A DNA stretch of 64,000 nt from Kaistia dalseonensis (GTDB taxonomy: Bacteria; Pseudomonadota; Alphaproteobacteria; Rhizobiales; Kaistiaceae): NCBI RefSeq assembly GCF_030814715.1, contig NZ_JAUSVO010000002.1, forward strand, positions 310,001 to 374,000. Reading direction: 5' to 3'. Shown in pieces: positions 3,237 through 51,098 of this stretch. Both the position numbers and the translations under genes were made by a program. Positions within the stretch are counted from its first letter, which is position 1. Each line of letters begins with the position of its first letter. Below the pieces are notes generated by a model. That model was not told the DNA's origin, did no database searches, and saw only the letters and a program-made list of their open reading frames with translations.

Positions 3237-4289
3237 TCAGCCGTCCGGTGGTGGATGGCCGCAAGACTGGCGCACCACGAGACGGCACGGCAGTTTCCGG
3301 ATACCCGGCTCGACGGGCTTGCCGTCGACCAGGGAAAGCAGGGTCAGCCCGGCCTCGCGGCCGAGCGCGACAAGGTTCATGTCGACGGTGGTGAGCGGCG
3401 GGCGCGAGGCGCTGGCCACGATCTCCCAATTGTCGAAGCCGATCACGCCGACATCTTCCGGCACGCGGATGCCGCGCTCGCGCAGCGCATCGATCACGCC
3501 GCGCGCGATCTGGTCATTGCCGCAGAAGACAGCGTCCGGGGCCGGTCCATCGCCGCCGAAGAGCCGGGCGACCGCCTCATGGCCCCAGGCCTCCGACCAC
3601 CGCCCCATCAGCACGTCGTAGAGCGGCAGGCCCGCCGCGCGCAGCACGGCCTGATAGGCGGCCGCGCGCTGGTGCACGACGGTGAACGTGTCGGGCCCCG
3701 TGACATGAACGATCCGCCTGCGGCCGAGGCCGACCAGATGCTCGACCGCCAGTTGCGCGCCCTGCTCGTCATCCGAGACGAAGGCGATCGAGCCCGGATC
3801 GGGCTGGGTAAAGGCATAGATGACGGGAATGCCGAGCTGGGCGAGATCGACGGGAAGGTGACGGTCGACACGCTTGCCGGTCGCGATGATGCCGTCGACG
3901 CGCTTGTCGAGCATGGCGTCGACATGCAGCTGGCCGAGGCGCGAATCGTCCTCGACATTGCAGAGGAATACCGAGACGCCATTATCGACCAGCGCATCGG
4001 AAATGCCGGCCATGACCGGCAGCGAGAAGCGGCCGTAAGTGTCGTTGGTGAGCAGACCGACCGTGAAGCTGCGCTGGCGCAACAGGCTCTGCGCCAGGCT
4101 GTTCGGCCGGAAGCCGAGCCGGCGCGCCGTCTCCTGGATCCGCGTGCGCGTCTCGGCCGTCATGCGGCCCTGGTCGTTGAGCGCCTTGGACGCGGTCGCG
4201 ACGCTGACGCCGGCCTCGAGCGCGACATCGCGCAGCGTCACGGGTCGCCTGCGGGCGATCCTGATCTCGCTGTCCGTGATGTCGGTCAT
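3237..4289 (-). CDS. LacI-family transcriptional regulator of the sugar operon
   Basis: A 350-residue repressor-type protein. An N-terminal helix-turn-helix and hinge occupy about residues 18-75 (VTLRDVALEAGVSVATASKAL), followed by a periplasmic-binding-like effector domain. ATG 4289 follows GGGAGAG at good spacing; the open frame continues upstream without a ribosome site. As first gene of the operon it probably controls its own transcript along with the transporter. The two palindromes at 4337-4354 and 4404-4421 fit the A-T-rich symmetric sites such proteins bind. The effector is probably the transported sugar or a derivative (inference). Confidence 0.93.
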   Translation of the reverse strand: MTDITDSEIRIARRRPVTLRDVALEAGVSVATASKALNDQGRMTAETRTRIQETARRLGFRPNSLAQSLLRQRSFTVGLLTNDTYGRFSLPVMAGISDALVDNGVSVFLCNVEDDSRLGQLHVDAMLDKRVDGIIATGKRVDRHLPVDLAQLGIPVIYAFTQPDPGSIAFVSDDEQGAQLAVEHLVGLGRRRIVHVTGPDTFTVVHQRAAAYQAVLRAAGLPLYDVLMGRWSEAWGHEAVARLFGGDGPAPDAVFCGNDQIARGVIDALRERGIRVPEDVGVIGFDNWEIVASASRPPLTTVDMNLVALGREAGLTLLSLVDGKPVEPGIRKLPCRLVVRQSCGHPPPDG

Positions 4290-4336
4290 GGCGCTCTCCC
4301 TGTGAGCCGGCGAATTCATTTCCGCTCGCCTTGCTC

Positions 4337-4354
4337 TGAGAAAAGCTTTTCTCA
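4337..4354. promoter_or_regulatory. Operator palindrome 1 for the LacI-type regulator
   Basis: TGAGAAAAGCTTTTCTCA is a perfect 18-base palindrome 48 bases upstream of the regulator start codon. It shares TGAGAAAA/TTTTCTCA arms with a second site whose centre is 67 bases away. Even spacing and a central CG-type step are usual for LacI-family sites; here the centre is GC. Confidence 0.75.
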
Positions 4355-4403
4355 TCCGGCACTTAAAAATGGCGGAGGAAAGGACCGACCGCCAGGAACC
4401 AGA

Positions 4404-4421
4404 TGAGAAAACCTTTTCTCA
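4404..4421. promoter_or_regulatory. Operator palindrome 2 for the LacI-type regulator
   Basis: TGAGAAAACCTTTTCTCA has the same two 8-base arms as the site at 4337-4354 and differs only in the central step. The centres are 67 bases apart (about six and a half helical turns), so looping or cooperative binding over the promoter of the lacI-transporter operon is possible. No clear -35/-10 pair was found between the two sites. Confidence 0.75.
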
Positions 4422-4534
4422 TTGAAAAGCTATACGGAGTTTTCGATCGGCGCAAGCGGCCGTGGCGAAGATTTGCGCAAGCCTCCGCCCGTCGCGACAC
4501 ACCGGCTCTGAGGCTTGCAACTGGCCTCGGGCGG

Positions 4535-5218
4535 TCAGAGCGCCTGCCAGAACGCCGTCGCCCAGCGATAGAAGAAGAGGCTCAGTTCCGCCCCGAAGAA
4601 GACGATGGCACTGTTCCATGCGATGGCGATCACGGTCAGCACCGTGCCGGCGAGCACGGCCACGCCGTCGCGCTCGATGAGGCCGAAGGCGAAGGCGATC
4701 ACGGCGAGCGCCGGCAACTGATTGCCGAGCGGGATCGGCAGCAGGATCATCACGGCATGGACGAAGATCGGCAGCGCCAGGATGAATTGCGCGACCCGCC
4801 CCGTCAGAATCGGCCAGCGCGGCCGCAGCAGCCATTCAACCCGTCGGAACCAGGGCGCGATCCAGGCGCCACCCTTGACCACCGGCCCGCGCGGCAGGCT
4901 GAAGCGCCGGAGCCTCTGCGGCAGGATCAGCCGATCGGCGCCGAGCATCACCTGAAGCGACAGGATCGCCAGCGCCGTGCCGAACACCACGCCTGTGGGC
5001 AGGCCAGGCATCGGGATGAACGAGGGCAGCGCCAGCATGAGGATCGTGATGCCCAGCCCCGATTCGCCGAGCGCATCGACCATTTCGCCCAGCGAAACGC
5101 GATCCTCCGTCAGCACGCTGTCGAGGCTCGACAGGATCACCGAGGCCGAGCGCGGCGGGATGAAGATGTGTGCGGCGGCGCCAGCGGGCAGATCCGACGT
5201 CAATCGAGCGATCCTCAT
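4535..5218 (-). CDS. exoD: ExoD-family exopolysaccharide synthesis protein
   Basis: Integral membrane protein of 227 residues with the ExoD family layout. A cytoplasmic N-terminal part carries SLGEMVDALGESGLG near residues 42-56, followed by the MLALPSFIPMPGLPTG-like segment and several membrane helices to the C terminus. In Sinorhizobium ExoD affects exopolysaccharide production and alkali tolerance; its biochemical role is unsettled. It is transcribed alone, toward the sugar operon, and diverges from the MscS gene. The C-terminal helices (VAVLAGTVLTVIAIAWNSAIVF) are typical of the family. Confidence 0.88.
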   Translation of the reverse strand: MRIARLTSDLPAGAAAHIFIPPRSASVILSSLDSVLTEDRVSLGEMVDALGESGLGITILMLALPSFIPMPGLPTGVVFGTALAILSLQVMLGADRLILPQRLRRFSLPRGPVVKGGAWIAPWFRRVEWLLRPRWPILTGRVAQFILALPIFVHAVMILLPIPLGNQLPALAVIAFAFGLIERDGVAVLAGTVLTVIAIAWNSAIVFFGAELSLFFYRWATAFWQAL

Positions 5219-5377
5219 TGGCTACGGCAGGGCGAAGCGCATATAGGTCTGTTCGCCGCATCCGCCACCTTCATGGCGCGGTTTCCTTGACCGCCGCATG
5301 AAGGTGGGCCTTCGTATTATCGACACGTTTCATCCTTCTTCTACCCACGCCTCAACGATTTCTGCCGGGAGATAAGC

Positions 5378-45931: not shown

Positions 45932-46204
45932 TCACCAGCGATAGCCGTTCGACCAGAAGCAGCGCTCGCCGACTACCACGCGCTTCCAGTACCAGCCTTG
46001 GTAGCCGCGTACCTTCACGGAACGGAAGACCGGCTTGCATACACGATGCGGGCGATGGCCCCATCCCGGCCCACCGGGTCCGCCGCCATGCCAGTACGGA
46101 CCGTTATGATAGGGCTGCGCCGACGCGGTGCCGGTCATCGCCGTGAGCGAGCCGGCCGCGATAGCGAGTGTGGTGGCTGCAGCGATTAATGTGGTCTTCA
46201 GCAT
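45932..46204 (-). CDS. Small secreted Gly/His/Trp-rich protein
   Basis: An exported protein of 90 residues. A signal peptide (MLKTTLIAAATTLAIAAGS, cut after TASA near residue 29) is followed by a Gly-Pro-His-Trp-rich stretch (NGPYWHGGGPGGPGWGHRPH) and a C-terminal part with two Cys and WYWKRVVVGERCFWSNGYRW. Similar short proteins are common in Hyphomicrobiales and are uncharacterised; His and Trp richness might bind metal (inference). AGGAGA lies ahead of ATG 46204. Confidence 0.83.
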   Translation of the reverse strand: MLKTTLIAAATTLAIAAGSLTAMTGTASAQPYHNGPYWHGGGPGGPGWGHRPHRVCKPVFRSVKVRGYQGWYWKRVVVGERCFWSNGYRW

Positions 46205-46431
46205 TTTGGCGTCTCCTTTTGAAAGGGCGATGTGCTGAACGTCACATCGTCTGGGCGCTATCAAAGGACACGACGCCTGAACCCTGGCTGAGTTCCTCGT
46301 TCATCAGGCGTTCAACCGATCATTGATCGTCTTCGCAAACGCGATATTGCATCGCCGCACGCTATGCGACATTTCTATGAATTAGGAATAGGGTCGAGCG
46401 GCAGTCGGCTTTGCCGGCCTGCCGACAAGCA
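46205..46431. other. Intergenic region with two inverted repeats
   Basis: CGATGTG (46228-46234) and CACATCG (46243-46249) form a 7-base inverted repeat in the 5' region of the secreted-protein gene. ACGCCTGA (46273-46280) and TCAGGCGT (46304-46311) form an 8-base one. Either could be an operator or part of a 5' leader. The right part, up to 46400, is AT-richer and probably holds promoters. Confidence 0.4.
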
Positions 46432-47342: not shown

Positions 47343-47427
47343 GGTGCTGCAACCTCGAAACCCTTGACCCAGGCCAGTTTTCGGCGCATTTAGCCCTGTC
47401 CAACCGCTAGTTCCAGGAATGATGGCA

Positions 47428-48033
47428 ATGGAAAAATTCACCACGCTCACCGGTGTCGCGGCCCCGCTGCCGTTCATCAATATCGACACCGACATGATCA
47501 TTCCGAAGGACTATCTGAAGACGATCAAGCGCACCGGCCTTGGCAAGGGCCTCTTCGCCGAGATGCGCTATAATGACGATGGCAGCGAGAACGCCGATTT
47601 CGTGCTGAACAAGCCGGCCTACAGGCATGCCTCGATCATTGTTGCCGGCGACAATTTCGGCTGCGGCTCGTCGCGCGAGCATGCGCCCTGGGCGTTGCTC
47701 GATTATGGGATCCGCTGCGTGATCTCCACGTCCTTCGCCGACATCTTCTACAATAACTGCTTCAACAACGGCATTTTGCCCATTCGCGTTTCGAAGGAAG
47801 ATCTCGACAAGCTCTTCGACGACGCCGATCGCGGCTCCAACTCGACGCTGACGGTCGACCTGGCCTCGCAGGAGATCCATGGCCCCGATGGCGGCATCGT
47901 GCATTTCGAAATCGACCCGGCCAAGAAGGAAAAGCTCCTGAACGGCCTCGACGAGATCGGCCTGACCTTGGTCAAGGCGCCGTCGATCGCGACCTTCGAA
48001 GAGACGCTCGCCACCGAACGTCCCTGGGCCTGA
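47428..48033 (+). CDS. leuD: 3-isopropylmalate dehydratase small subunit
   Basis: The swivelling-domain subunit of isopropylmalate isomerase, 201 residues. The protein opens with [30 protein letters not shown] (short motif NIDTDMIIP). [17 protein letters not shown] holds the substrate loop. [17 protein letters not shown] is also typical. The ATG at 47428 is chosen, with AGGA ten bases upstream; two ATGs at 47419 and 47422 are possible. It lies about 1.6 kb from leuC and ends at a strong terminator. Confidence 0.96.
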
Positions 48034-48057: not shown

Positions 48058-48094
48058 GAAAACGGCGCCCGGATCATCTCCGGGCGCCGTTTTC
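48058..48094. terminator. Strong bidirectional terminator between leuD and the secreted-protein array
   Basis: A perfect 16-bp stem (GAAAACGGCGCCCGGA, 48058-48073, with its complement at 48079-48094) and a five-base loop. The A run on one side and the T run on the other let it serve both leuD and the leftward array. Confidence 0.93.
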
Positions 48095-48114: not shown

Positions 48115-48390
48115 CTAGTTGCTGTCGTTATTGTCCGAGGCGGCACGGTTCGGGTTGAACGCGCCCACGCCCTGGTTACCATTCGCCGTTACGCCGACGA
48201 CCTGGCCCGGCAGAATGCCGTAAAGCTGGGCGCCATTGGCGAACTGGTAGGTCTGGCCGTTCTGCAGCGTCAGCGTGCCAGCGGCCGGGTTGACCGAGAC
48301 GGCGGTGCCGATCGTCTGCTCAGCGGCGAGCGCCGAGCCGGCAGAGGCGAGGAAAGCGACCGAAGCCGCAGCGATCATGAAATTGCGCAT
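48115..48390 (-). CDS. DUF1344-like secreted protein, array copy 1 (class A)
   Basis: A 91-residue exported protein. Signal peptide about 1-22 (MRNFMIAAASVAFLASAGS, cut at ALAA), then a small beta-rich domain (TIGTAVSVNPAAGTLTLQNG, FANGAQLYGILPGQVVGV) and an Asn-rich tail. The pattern of a short strand, GTLTL-Q-G, then ILPGQ-V-V recalls DUF1344 and OB-like domains. Copy 1 differs from copy 4 at only four residues, while its upstream block matches that of copy 2. It is the last of five paralogues. AGGA lies before the ATG. Confidence 0.9.
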   Translation of the reverse strand: MRNFMIAAASVAFLASAGSALAAEQTIGTAVSVNPAAGTLTLQNGQTYQFANGAQLYGILPGQVVGVTANGNQGVGAFNPNRAASDNNDSN

Positions 48391-48480
48391 AGTGAATATC
48401 CTGTCTTGGGTGACCGGCCCGCCGTCATGCGGCGAACACCGGTCCCCTGGGTTCGAACAGATCCGTGTTCGACGTTTCGC
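48391..48480 (-). repeat. 90-base block, first copy, with two-part hairpin
   Basis: This spacer between copies 1 and 2 is repeated at 48757-48846 with two base differences. It contains a nested stem, GACCGG (48412-48417) with CCGGTC (48439-48444), enclosing CGCCG/CGGCG. It also carries a GTTCGAAC palindrome (near 48451) and the ribosome site for copy 1. Confidence 0.85.
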
Positions 48481-48756
48481 TTAGAACTGGCCGCCGTTAT
48501 CCGAGCTTTCCGGATGCGGGTTGAAGGCACCGACGCCTTCGGCGCCGTTATGGGTCACGCCCACCGTCTGGCCCGGCAGGATGCCGTAGAGCTGTGCGCC
48601 ATTGGCGAACTTGAAGCTCTCACCCGACTGAAGGGTCAGCGTGCCCGAAGCCGGGTTGACGCTCTGAACCGTGCCCTCGACCTGGTCAGCGGCAAACGCC
48701 GCACCAGCCGAAGCGAGGAAGGCGACCGAAGCCGCAGCGATCATGAAATTGCGCAT
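48481..48756 (-). CDS. DUF1344-like secreted protein, array copy 2 (class B)
   Basis: A 91-residue paralogue with signal peptide (MRNFMIAAASVAFLASAGA) and mature part opening DQVEGTVQSVNPASGTLTLQSG. Its body matches copy 3 except for residues 4 and 89. Its mature domain keeps the block FANGAQLYGILPGQTVGVTH that all copies share, and its tail reads NPHPESSDNG. AGGA precedes the ATG, within a block shared with copy 1. Function is unknown. Confidence 0.9.
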   Translation of the reverse strand: MRNFMIAAASVAFLASAGAAFAADQVEGTVQSVNPASGTLTLQSGESFKFANGAQLYGILPGQTVGVTHNGAEGVGAFNPHPESSDNGGQF

Positions 48757-48846
48757 AGTGAATATCCTGTCTTGGGCGACCGGCCCGCCGTCATGCGGCG
48801 AACACCGGCCCCCTGGGTTCGAACAGATCCGTGTTCGACGTTTCGC
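48757..48846 (-). repeat. 90-base block, second copy
   Basis: Second copy of the block at 48391-48480, differing in two bases. One difference changes the outer hairpin arm so that CCGGTC becomes CCGGCC, breaking one pair, so the stem is a little weaker. It lies upstream of copy 2 and downstream of copy 3. Confidence 0.85.
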
Positions 48847-49122
48847 TTAGAACTGGCTGCCGTTATCCGAGCTTTCCGGATGCGGGTTGAAGGCACCGAC
48901 GCCTTCGGCGCCGTTATGGGTCACACCCACCGTCTGGCCCGGCAGGATGCCGTAGAGCTGCGCGCCATTGGCGAACTTGAAGCTCTCACCCGACTGAAGG
49001 GTCAGCGTGCCCGAAGCGGGGTTGACGCTCTGAACCGTGCCCTCGACCTGGTCAGCGGCAAACGCCGCACCAGCCGAAGCGAGGAAGGCGACCGAGGCCG
49101 CAGCGATCATGAGATTGCGCAT
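48847..49122 (-). CDS. DUF1344-like secreted protein, array copy 3 (class B)
   Basis: A 91-residue paralogue almost identical in body to copy 2 but opening MRNLMIAAAS like copy 4. The leader upstream also differs from that of copies 1 and 2 (AAGGACAAAAACT before the ATG). The frame is open upstream past 49122, but ATG 49122 is supported by paralogue alignment and by its ribosome site. Signal peptide cut expected after AFAA. Confidence 0.9.
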   Translation of the reverse strand: MRNLMIAAASVAFLASAGAAFAADQVEGTVQSVNPASGTLTLQSGESFKFANGAQLYGILPGQTVGVTHNGAEGVGAFNPHPESSDNGSQF

Positions 49123-49200
49123 AGTTTTTGTCCTTGTTCTTGCTGATGGATCTGCCGCCGGGCGGCAGGCCATTTGTTGTTCCGAGCTTTCGCCCGTGGA

Positions 49201-49476
49201 TTAGTTGCTGTCGTTGTTGTCCGAGGCGGCACGGTTCGGGTTGAACGCGCCCACGCCCTGGTTGCCATTCGCCGTTACGCCGACGACCTGGCCCGGCAGG
49301 ATGCCGTAGAGCTGGGCGCCATTGGCGAACTGATAGGTCTGGCCGTTCTGCAGCGTCAGCGTGCCGGAGGCCGGATTGACCGAGACGGCGGTGCCGATCG
49401 TCTGCTCAGCAGCAACAGCTGCACCAGCCGAGGCGAGGAAAGCGACCGAAGCCGCGGCGATCATGAGATTGCGCAT
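49201..49476 (-). CDS. DUF1344-like secreted protein, array copy 4 (class A)
   Basis: A 91-residue paralogue of class A. Compared with copy 1 it differs at residues 4, 19, 21 and 37 only; the mature domain and Asn-rich tail (FNPNRAASDNNDSN) are otherwise the same. AAGGA precedes the ATG. It lies 78 bases upstream of copy 3 and 73 downstream of copy 5. Signal peptide cut expected near AVAA. Confidence 0.9.
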   Translation of the reverse strand: MRNLMIAAASVAFLASAGAAVAAEQTIGTAVSVNPASGTLTLQNGQTYQFANGAQLYGILPGQVVGVTANGNQGVGAFNPNRAASDNNDSN

Positions 49477-49549
49477 GATGAAGTCCTTATTATCTGTATG
49501 GGGTGGCCCGCCGACCGGCGGCGGGCCGAGCGAGCGATCGGTCAGCCGA

Positions 49550-49825
49550 TCAGAAGCTCACATCGCTGTCGGAATTGGCCGGGTGGGGATTGAAGGCACC
49601 GACACCCTGGTTGCCATTATAGGTGACGCCGATGGTCTGGCCCGGCAGGATGCCGTAGAGCTGGGCGCCATTGGCGAACTTGAAGCTCTCGCCCGACTGC
49701 AGGGTCAGCGTGCCATTGGCAGGGTTGACGCTCTGGACGGTGCCTTCAGTCTGCTGTGCGGCAAAAGCCGAAGCGCCCGAGGCGAGAAAAGCGACCGAAG
49801 CCGCAGCGAAGATGAAATTGCGCAT
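49550..49825 (-). CDS. DUF1344-like secreted protein, array copy 5 (most divergent, class B)
   Basis: First gene of the array in transcription order, 91 residues. It shares the class B core (TEGTVQSVNPANGTLTLQSG) but has its own signal peptide ending (FIFAAASVAFLASGASAF) and tail (NPHPANSDSDVSF). It is probably the oldest copy of class B. ATG 49825 aligns with its paralogues; an upstream extension is not conserved. The promoter of the array should lie upstream, but no good boxes were seen. Confidence 0.9.
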   Translation of the reverse strand: MRNFIFAAASVAFLASGASAFAAQQTEGTVQSVNPANGTLTLQSGESFKFANGAQLYGILPGQTIGVTYNGNQGVGAFNPHPANSDSDVSF

Positions 49826-49954
49826 GATGCAAGTCCCGTTCTTTTCAGTTTCAAACACCGTGGCGGGCGTTGGCCGGAGGTTTTGGCTAGCCGGTGTGTC
49901 CGTCGCTGGTGACGCTGATTTGGGGGTAGCTTGCCGGCGAAACAAATCACGCAA

Positions 49955-50210
49955 ATGTCATCCAAGCAGGCCTTGAACTGCCCCTTTGGACGATTTTTTC
50001 TTGAGACCGAATTATTCGGATACAGCGTTCCAGATTATGCGGACTTATAGGAACGAAAAATCCAAACGGGGCGCTATTGTTCACTATTCCATGCATAGCT
50101 GTTCAACGAAAATAGCGAAGCTCATGATAAGCTTTGCATATTTTCAGCGGCCCCATGACAAGATCGCGAGCGCACTGCGATAACGAGTCGCCGCGCCGTG
50201 AGCTGAATGC
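49955..50210. other. AT-rich gap between the array and the CitE-like gene
   Basis: This 256-base stretch is visibly richer in A and T than its surroundings (GATTTTTTCTTGAG, AATTATTCGG, GATAAGCTTTGCATATTTTC). A plus-strand frame of 65 residues (49986-50183) is open, but it lacks a ribosome site and motif. The array promoter and the 3' end of the leftward CitE-like gene lie in or beside it. It may be a remnant of foreign DNA. Confidence 0.4.
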
Positions 50211-51098
50211 TCAGCCGGCGCTGCGATGCGTGATCGCAGCAGCGATCGCGAGCGTCCGGCGGGCCATTTCGGCATGAAGGCGCTCGACCATGCGCCCATC
50301 CACCATCACCACGCCCTGCCCTGCATGCTCCGGCAGGTCGAAAACCGAGGCGATCCGCTTCGCAAGGGCCAGCTCCGTGGCATCGGGCGAGAATGCTGCG
50401 TTGCAGGAGGCAATCTGGGAGGGATGGATGACGGTCTTGCCGTCGAACCCACAATCCCGTGCGGCGGCGCATTCGGACACGAAGCCCTCATGGTCAGCGA
50501 TAGCGTTGAAGACGCCATCCAATATATCGAGGCCGGCCACCCGGGCAGCGGCCAGGGCCGCCATCATCCAGGCCATCATCGGTGCACGGCCCGCCACCTG
50601 TCGTGCCCGCGTCTCACGAGCGAGATCATTGAGGCCAAGCACCAGCGCGGCCAGCGGCCAATGCTCGTCCGCCGATAGCGCGATCGCCAAGGGATCGAGC
50701 ACGGCACGCGGCGTCTCGATCATCGCCCAGATCGGCAGACGAGGGGCATCGGTGGCACGCAGGACTGCCCGAACCCGCTCTATGTCGGCCGCGAGGGACA
50801 CCTTGGGGATCAGAACGGCATCCGGCGCCGCCTTCACTATCGCGGCAAGATCCGCATGGCCCCATGGCGAATCGAGTCCATTGCAGCGGATTACGACTTC
50901 ACCGCGAAAGCCCGACATCCTGAAGCCGACAGCCGCCTCGACGACTCGCCTCCGCGCATCATCCTTCTCTGTCGGCGCCACGGCGTCTTCCAGATCGAGA
51001 ATGAGGACGTCGGCACCGAGCGTGCCGGCCTTGTCGAGGGCGCGCTGGTTCGATCCCGGCACATAGAGCGCCGTACGGCGCGGACGGATCTGGGTCAT
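50211..51098 (-). CDS. CitE/HpcH-family CoA-ester lyase
   Basis: A TIM-barrel lyase of 295 residues of the HpcH/HpaI aldolase family. RTALYVPGSNQRALDKA opens it. LILDLEDAVAP carries the acidic metal site, and VVIRCNGLDSPWGHADL, IPKVSLAADIE, AMIETPRAVLD and GKTVIHPSQIASCN are the family blocks. Members split citryl-, malyl- or methylmalyl-CoA. CitD and CitF are absent nearby, so a stand-alone malyl-CoA-type lyase is likely. The precise substrate is open. Confidence 0.9.
   Translation of the reverse strand: MTQIRPRRTALYVPGSNQRALDKAGTLGADVLILDLEDAVAPTEKDDARRRVVEAAVGFRMSGFRGEVVIRCNGLDSPWGHADLAAIVKAAPDAVLIPKVSLAADIERVRAVLRATDAPRLPIWAMIETPRAVLDPLAIALSADEHWPLAALVLGLNDLARETRARQVAGRAPMMAWMMAALAAARVAGLDILDGVFNAIADHEGFVSECAAARDCGFDGKTVIHPSQIASCNAAFSPDATELALAKRIASVFDLPEHAGQGVVMVDGRMVERLHAEMARRTLAIAAAITHRSAG

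Follow-up and report, generated by a model that had tools for sequence, protein, structure and literature searches.

A tandem array of small DUF1344-related genes in Kaistia dalseonensis and its relatives

DUF1344 (PF07076) is the Pfam name for a family of unknown function, and in those parts of the literature that could be consulted the name appears merely in lists. Here we describe an array of five related genes in Kaistia dalseonensis, located within a 64,000-nucleotide stretch of its genome (the window, hereafter, to whose first letter all coordinates refer). In common with other members of the family, the array proteins consist of a small domain behind a signal-like N-terminus (as read by eye), and three of the five score above the family cut-off. 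The differences are that the Kaistia copies form homogenised arrays with an upstream module of their own, that in some species these arrays are flanked by leuD and a citE-like gene, and that the array proteins share a conserved FANG..LYGILPGQ core, with copies 2 and 5 scoring under the cut-off.

Three further systems invite comparison. CusF/SilF (PF11604) proteins, periplasmic Cu(I)/Ag(I) chaperones, are of comparable size and form an OB-type (oligonucleotide/oligosaccharide-binding) barrel, a fold that a model suggests for the array protein; the array proteins differ in lacking the metal-binding loop, Cys and Trp, and no efflux operon is found among their identified neighbours. ExtJ (NF040942), a protein of a selenite/tellurite reduction operon, shows weak profile likeness, with scores of 21.2 (P0001), 32 (P0002) and 24.4 bits (P0005) that lie below the NCBIfam cut-off of 52.5. 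Lastly, gene conversion among paralogues of Mycobacterium tuberculosis, in the portion of that report available (PMC12046097), resembles the present case in that copies within the same genome overwrite each other, but concerns another organism and another gene family, and Kaistia adds an array codon bias and a single upstream module. The listings of a literature search contained no account of the arrays described here.

With moderate confidence, we read the locus as a dosage-amplified operon, maintained by purifying selection and gene conversion, for an abundant small envelope OB protein. On this reading, an activator would probably bind the TGAACA direct repeat of the upstream module, and a multi-gene message would start at a box 186-190 bp downstream. 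The five cistrons would yield Sec-type precursors, whose cleavage would release an acidic, Cys-free OB-type barrel of ~69 residues into the periplasm or outside the cell, while a strong hairpin would end the message ahead of leuD. Gene conversion, unequal exchange and purifying selection would together hold the copies similar, such that the chief role of the array would be to raise the dosage of one abundant envelope protein, present in K. dalseonensis in two slightly different forms. High expression, export, co-transcription and a regulator of the array are thus all predictions of the scheme.

The array and its distribution among Kaistia genomes

An earlier note on this DNA had reported five tandem leftward genes of 276 bases and 91 residues, separated by 73-90 bases and sharing one conserved block. 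The ORF (open reading frame) list and the sequence agree: five minus-strand ORFs occupy positions 48115-49825, the spacers measure, rightward by coordinate, 90, 90, 78 and 73 bp, and the block FANGAQLYGILPGQ is invariant in all five proteins. In order of transcription, the copies are as follows.

49550-49825, minus strand: copy 1, subtype II, first gene of the unit, 91 aa; codon adaptation lower (0.695)
49201-49476, minus strand: copy 2, subtype I, 91 aa
48847-49122, minus strand: copy 3, subtype II, 91 aa
48481-48756, minus strand: copy 4, subtype II, 91 aa, recent duplicate of copy 3
48115-48390, minus strand: copy 5, subtype I, last gene, 91 aa

By sequence, the copies split into subtype I (48115, 49201) and subtype II (48481, 48847, 49550), in the transcriptional order II, I, II, II, I. 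Of 276 nt, 6 differ between copies 3 and 4 and 20 between copies 2 and 5; copy 1 is separated from copy 3 by 60 nt and from copy 4 by 56 nt, and the six subtype I-II pairs differ at 68-82 nt. A repeat family of 284 nt (n=5) covers the five genes, four of its copies being 70-92% identical to the reference copy. Each of the proteins has a signal-like N-terminus with an AxA-like cleavage site, both read by eye, and mature parts cut at residue 22 have isoelectric points of 4.05-4.35. A 246-aa open frame on the plus strand (48406-49146) crosses two copies and repeats with the array; it is most likely a high-GC shadow frame.

The family is placed beyond chance by the finding that relatives at E <= 1e-5 occur in 14/14 Kaistia genomes, with 93 matches in total. 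K. dalseonensis itself (G000; other genomes compared are labelled G, and fetched loci L) has 11 copies at this threshold, five in the array and six scattered. Arrays of two to six copies are present in 13 of the 14 genomes, seven at leuD-citE and six at fabI-aroC; alongside the five copies of K. dalseonensis, G001, G004, G005, G006, G008 and G013 carry three each at leuD-citE. The fabI-aroC arrays belong to G002, G003, G009, G010, G011 and G012, that of G009 being split over two contig ends; the identities of fabI and aroC were confirmed in K. dalseonensis. The fourteenth genome, G007, is a fragmented metagenome-assembled genome with two copies on short contigs.

In 5/6 genomes of the fabI-aroC type, leuD and the citE-like gene lie close together with no array between them; the 1.5-kb flank available for G011 likewise contains no array, but stops short of leuD. 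Each leuD-type genome fetched at fabI-aroC (G000, G001, G006) has a single family copy there. This site looks like the older home of the family, because a DUF1344 gene adjoins fabI in a genome of another family (G049) and a weaker relative adjoins aroC in G021. A common origin of the arrays at the two sites was not rejected when all 47 rows were held together (p-AU 0.44, from the approximately unbiased test), a result that shows no clade, and was rejected (p 0.026) when the 45 rows without the nested single copies L066 and L069 were held together.

Several observations were made at or beyond the edges of these arrays. The array-end copies L054:4140-4409 (G002) and L061:4293-4556 (G009) have a degraded core block (LLRILPVQRLGI and LLRLLSVQRLGI, respectively) and lower codon adaptation (0.54 and 0.64), and are perhaps decaying or diverging. 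In genus g3 of the same family, a seven-copy array lies at fabI-aroC (L068, G015:C2, 4523-7056), in which four copies are nearly identical and the outer copies divergent, and which has no Kaistia upstream module. A small tandem group of three relatives is found in another genus of the family (L101, G017:C23, near 4275-5231). In an order-wide sample of 297 genomes, six of them Kaistia, 60 have a relative at E <= 1e-6, and outside Kaistia at least six genomes of the sample have two or three neighbouring matches, a minimum because scoring was limited to 17 candidates in each genome.

Evolution and codon usage of the copies

In a tree built from the 23 copies at leuD-citE, the genome label requires 8 changes, compared with a minimum of 13 in 500 shuffles, while the position label requires 13 changes, compared with a shuffle mean of 11.2, and shows no grouping. 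Because copies group by genome and not by array position, the leuD-site copies are under concerted evolution; array copies are more alike than their place in the array would predict. Mean synonymous divergence (pS) within the six other leuD-site arrays is 0.19-0.35, and that between the seven genomes is 0.22-0.49. The ratio of nonsynonymous to synonymous divergence (pN/pS) within arrays is 0.08-0.22, and thus below 0.25, in the six relatives with an array at leuD-citE; it is 0.38 in K. dalseonensis and spans 0.08-0.44 over the 12 Kaistia arrays measured. Arrays of two to six copies at two chromosomal sites form a natural series with which gene conversion and dosage selection can be gauged in a bacterium.

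Amplification of the whole array as a recent event, which the earlier note had entertained, does not survive these comparisons: six relatives have three copies at leuD-citE, and a recent five-fold amplification is ruled out by a I-II silent divergence as large as that between species. What stands of the idea is the pair 48481/48847, with its 6/276 differences.

Silent divergence between subtypes I and II in K. dalseonensis varies along the gene, amounting to 0.26 in the signal region (codons 1-16), 0.58 in codons 17-49, 0.15 in the block (codons 50-63) and 0.74 in codons 64-91; between K. dalseonensis and the other leuD-site genomes, the same segments give 0.40, 0.48, 0.31 and 0.47. At silent sites, likeness between the two old subtypes is confined to the signal region and the FANGAQLYGILPGQ block, and at the DNA level the block thus looks homogenised within K. 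dalseonensis, as by local gene conversion, a reading drawn from silent divergence by region over few sites (~11 silent sites in the block). Codon constraint may add to the similarity of the block, in that codons A51, G53 and T54 are more conserved across genomes than codon usage predicts, while N52, L56, L60 and P61 are not. A run-length test for conversion tracts in the ten pairs of the five copies gave one value below 0.05 (p 0.027), which is not significant after ten tests.

The same figures bear on whether the array makes a deliberate mixture, with subtypes I and II and their variable tails acting as different envelope building blocks or ligand binders. Such an account would add that selection preserves the distinction between the subtypes as conversion renews the signal and core block common to both, and it draws on the I-II silent divergence of the variable segments, which exceeds the divergence from other leuD-site genomes (0.58 against 0.48 and 0.74 against 0.47) and yet drops to 0.15 in the block and 0.26 in the signal; the transcriptional order of the subtypes may be counted for it as well. 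An old or imported copy may, however, also explain the high silent divergence of the variable segments, mean pN within the six other leuD-site arrays (three copies each) is only 0.017-0.074, and the 67-row family tree shows no subtype common to several species. The persistence of two subtypes in K. dalseonensis gives some weight to the mix of variants suggested in the earlier note, but copies are more alike in the six leuD-site relatives; as an explanation of the array, we regard a deliberate mixture as unlikely, though worth keeping in view.

Codon usage provides a proxy for expression. Codon weights were taken from 14 ribosomal protein cluster ORFs of K. dalseonensis only, picked by eye, of which all ten checked match ribosomal families. 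By this measure, 4/5 array copies score 0.774-0.783, a level attained by 2/52 background ORFs of the window (mean 0.611); with each left out in turn, the 14 ribosomal genes have a mean of 0.739 (standard deviation 0.060), and the six scattered K. dalseonensis paralogues score 0.541-0.695. Genus-wide, means are 0.78 for the 23 leuD-site copies, 0.74 for the 24 fabI-site array copies and 0.60 for the 13 others; the comparison of the 47 array copies with the 13 others gives p 4e-6, a value that is too strong because the rows share ancestry. The single fabI-aroC copies of G000, G001 and G006 score low (0.588, 0.467 and 0.651), and the bias therefore follows the array and not the site. Array copies tend toward ribosomal-like codon usage, and scattered copies mostly do not. 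Together with the dedicated upstream module, codon usage lends indirect support to the dosage amplification that had been proposed as one possible role of the array.

Might the array instead be a neutral by-product of tandem duplication, in which copies rise and fall by unequal exchange and confer no benefit? The variable copy number (2-6 in Kaistia arrays, 7 in L068) and the degraded-looking end copies of G002 and G009 are what such a process could leave behind, but arrays persist in 13/14 genomes, pN/pS in the 12 Kaistia arrays lies well below 1, a conserved upstream module occurs at two chromosomal sites and codon bias tracks array membership. A neutral origin of the arrays as they stand is accordingly very improbable.

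Several observations nevertheless weigh against a dosage-amplified operon. Firstly, copy 1 has a codon adaptation of 0.695, which 13/52 background ORFs reach; scores over 91 codons are noisy, 15% of stretches of that length from background ORFs attaining 0.774, and the reference weights, moreover, come from the K. dalseonensis genome only. One array copy of G005 scores 0.653 and four fabI-site copies in G002 and G009 score 0.51-0.64, while one scattered copy of G011 reaches 0.766. Secondly, two pairs of close genomes show no clear contrast in pS: G001 and G008 differ by 0.224 between genomes and by 0.193 and 0.226 within, and G006 and G013 by 0.320 between and by 0.345 and 0.201 within, although their leuD genes differ by just 0.173. 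Thirdly, pN/pS is higher in certain other arrays (0.33-0.44 in G002, G011 and G012, and 0.79 in G015), and pN between subtypes I and II of K. dalseonensis is 0.185-0.217, a divergence that pure dosage does not need. Lastly, a standard sigma-70 promoter scan found no promoter on the array strand.

A fuller form of the dosage reading is offered tentatively, with less confidence than its core: a dosage cassette specific to Kaistia, combining a nearly single-target module with a conversion-maintained operon for what would be among the most abundant envelope proteins, having occupied two chromosomal sites, and keeping two protein forms apart in K. dalseonensis, with conversion overwriting nothing beyond the signal and core block that they share.

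The upstream module

The region ahead of copy 1 contains three elements.

50076-50105, minus strand: direct repeat TGAACA-N16-TGAACAAT with a 22-bp period, found by motif search; probable regulator site
50048-50054, minus strand: short conserved TTC-centred element, GTTCCTA, from the upstream alignment, coordinates by eye
49908-49945, minus strand: promoter-like box of the TTG-N17-CA type followed by TCAGCGTCACC, common, as variants, to 14/14 array units

An alignment of the upstream regions shows two conserved islands, the sequence between repeat and box being poorly conserved. The TTC-centred element follows the direct repeat by ~21 nt and is of the ATTC type in most relatives. Measured from its start, the repeat precedes the start codon by 267-287 bp and the TCAG/CAG of the box by 186-190 bp.

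Sixty-one Kaistia copies, from the loci fetched, were scanned for the module (TGAACA repeat with a spacing of 13-18 and at most one substitution; box with at most two). Repeat and box occur together ahead of 14/61 copies, in 13 genomes, and ahead of 0/47 others. Each of the 14 stands first in an array, with exceptions in three genomes: the row of G012 is interrupted by a gap of ~730 bp, after which a second module appears, and G002 and G009 each have an extra copy (L054:6885 and L060:1148) upstream of the module, belonging to a type whose grouping with the single fabI-site copies of G001 and G006 is weak (81/81).

Across the 14 whole Kaistia genomes, the repeat was found at 22 places with at most two mismatches, compared with 2 for a reversed control. 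At most one mismatch leaves 15 places, of which 13 lie ahead of arrays; the array repeat of G004 has two mismatches, and G007 has no place within two. In the K. dalseonensis genome, the repeat occurs once within two mismatches of the searched pattern, at the array. The motif was derived from these same sequences, and its presence at arrays is therefore no independent test, while its rarity elsewhere and its absence from other copies are. A persistent array with a nearly unique repeat offers a practical entry to DUF1344, by way of a one-operon deletion and a search for the regulator through the repeat. The two one-mismatch places outside arrays are G002:C12 and G008:C1; judged by eye from ORF lists, the latter is on the antisense strand within the 3' end of an rseP-like ORF, and is probably due to chance.

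The box is less specific. Alone, TCAGCGTCACCGGCGACG is found at 101 places with at most three mismatches in the K. dalseonensis genome (reversed control, 18), the box of the array being the only one with a single mismatch among the places listed; the TCAGCGTCACC part alone is likewise not specific. As a lead, the box resembles by eye the RpoH-type promoter CTTGAA-N15-16-CCTATAT, as given in the part of the source available (PMC4843759). A CenR-type regulator is not proposed, since the TGA-N8-TGA site given in the accessible part of its description (PMC9275681) is at odds with the 22-bp period.

The nearly constant distance between repeat and box, maintained despite poor conservation between them, could also be expected of a regulatory RNA or leader that controls the array post-transcriptionally, in which case the module would not be a DNA-binding site. 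RNAalifold, applied to the 14 upstream regions, however, yields two pairs and no covariation, and Rfam has no match near the array or in the window. On these two results a conserved RNA leader was rejected, and we consider RNA-based control of the array very improbable compared with a DNA-binding site.

The array protein and the flanking sequences

The earlier note had likened the proteins to DUF1344 and OB-like domains, a comparison that is supported with qualifications. The DUF1344 gathering cut-off of 23.1 bits is reached by P0002 (26.4), P0003 (26.4) and P0005 (23.3), while the subtype I proteins P0001 (19.5) and P0004 (21.1) score below it; the homology of the latter to the other array proteins, as judged from their sequences, is not in doubt because they are 75-76% identical to P0002. 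Among 33 aligned family members, profile matches at E <= 0.01 were obtained to DUF1344 in 28, to CusF_Ec in 15 and to DUF5666 in three. An AlphaFold2 model built from 33 sequences predicts a five-strand barrel (mean predicted local distance difference test, pLDDT, 75.9; predicted template modelling score, pTM, 0.55). Foldseek returned no match to this model at E <= 0.001, and a profile search against solved structures identified no convincing relative, the best match having E 0.05. In VIA-align, SilF (Z 8.7, root-mean-square deviation, rmsd, 7.8), PilY2, SSB and CusF all score at Z 7-9, and superantigen OB domains are among the generic OB fold matches. Taken together, this model of moderate confidence suggests an OB-type barrel and nothing more specific.

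Whether the array encodes a copper/silver chaperone of the CusF/SilF kind, amplified for metal tolerance, is a question raised by the CusF_Ec matches, weak as they are, by the presence of CusF and SilF among the best fold matches (Z 6.3-8.7) and by a His in the mature part of 42/47 array proteins. In E. coli CusF, the metal ligands are His, Trp and two Met. When cut at residue 22, the mature parts contain Cys in 0/47, Trp in 0/47 and Met in 4/47 array proteins, and the two subtype I copies of K. dalseonensis have no His there. The metal-ligand loop of E. coli CusF falls in an alignment gap, albeit in an alignment of 47 columns with just 15% probability, and the array proteins of K. dalseonensis miss the CusF_Ec cut-off of 27 bits, the best scoring 22.3. 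In the fold comparison, CusF aligns with the model at Z 6.9-7.3 (rmsd 2.0-2.9, 59-68 residues), and unrelated OB proteins score equally. The identified neighbours at both array sites are leuC, leuD, the citE-like gene, a pdxY-like gene, fabI and aroC, with no metal efflux genes among them. Given the gap at the CusF loop, in that low-probability alignment, and the lack of Cys and Trp, a metal chaperone was rejected as the least probable of the explanations weighed here.

Two other candidates were set aside. Shiga toxin B-subunit models match P0002 by chance (E 0.05-0.13, at most 13.7 bits against cut-offs of at least 175), and an origin in a mobile element was rejected after searches in which a plasmid collection gave no match to the array DNA and a phage collection none to P0002.

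The remaining features of the locus lie between and beside the copies.

47419-48033, plus strand: leuD, 3-isopropylmalate dehydratase small subunit, flanking and convergent with the array
48058-48094, minus strand: GC-rich hairpin of 16 bp, bordered at its foot by A and T runs, between copy 5 and leuD, coordinates by eye
48391-48480, minus strand: spacer between copies 4 and 5, hairpins by folding
48757-48846, minus strand: spacer between copies 3 and 4, hairpins by folding, near-identical to the next spacer
49123-49200, minus strand: spacer between copies 2 and 3, hairpins by folding
49477-49549, minus strand: spacer between copies 1 and 2, hairpins by folding
50211-51098, minus strand: HpcH/HpaI aldolase/citrate lyase family gene, citE-like, flanking the array upstream, below the NCBIfam citE cut-off

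The hairpin between copy 5 and leuD has a fold z of -4.95, with 0/200 shuffles equally good; it is a probable two-way terminator, and is absent from the list returned by a pattern scan. Across arrays, spacer hairpins have z below -2 in 17/30 spacers. In G006 and G013, none of the four short spacers contains a hairpin with z below -2, and spacer hairpins were therefore rejected as a defining part of the array.

Elsewhere in the window, a 110-aa Gly/His/Trp-rich putative secreted protein is encoded between leuC and a GNAT-like gene (45932-46264, minus strand); it matches no Pfam family and has relatives of 39-53% identity in the corresponding position of five other genomes. At the fabI-aroC site, a protein frame adjoining fabI (L048 2051-3964, minus strand; L055 7569-9443, plus strand) has a low-complexity tail rich in Arg, Pro, Asn and Gln, which is long and varies in length.

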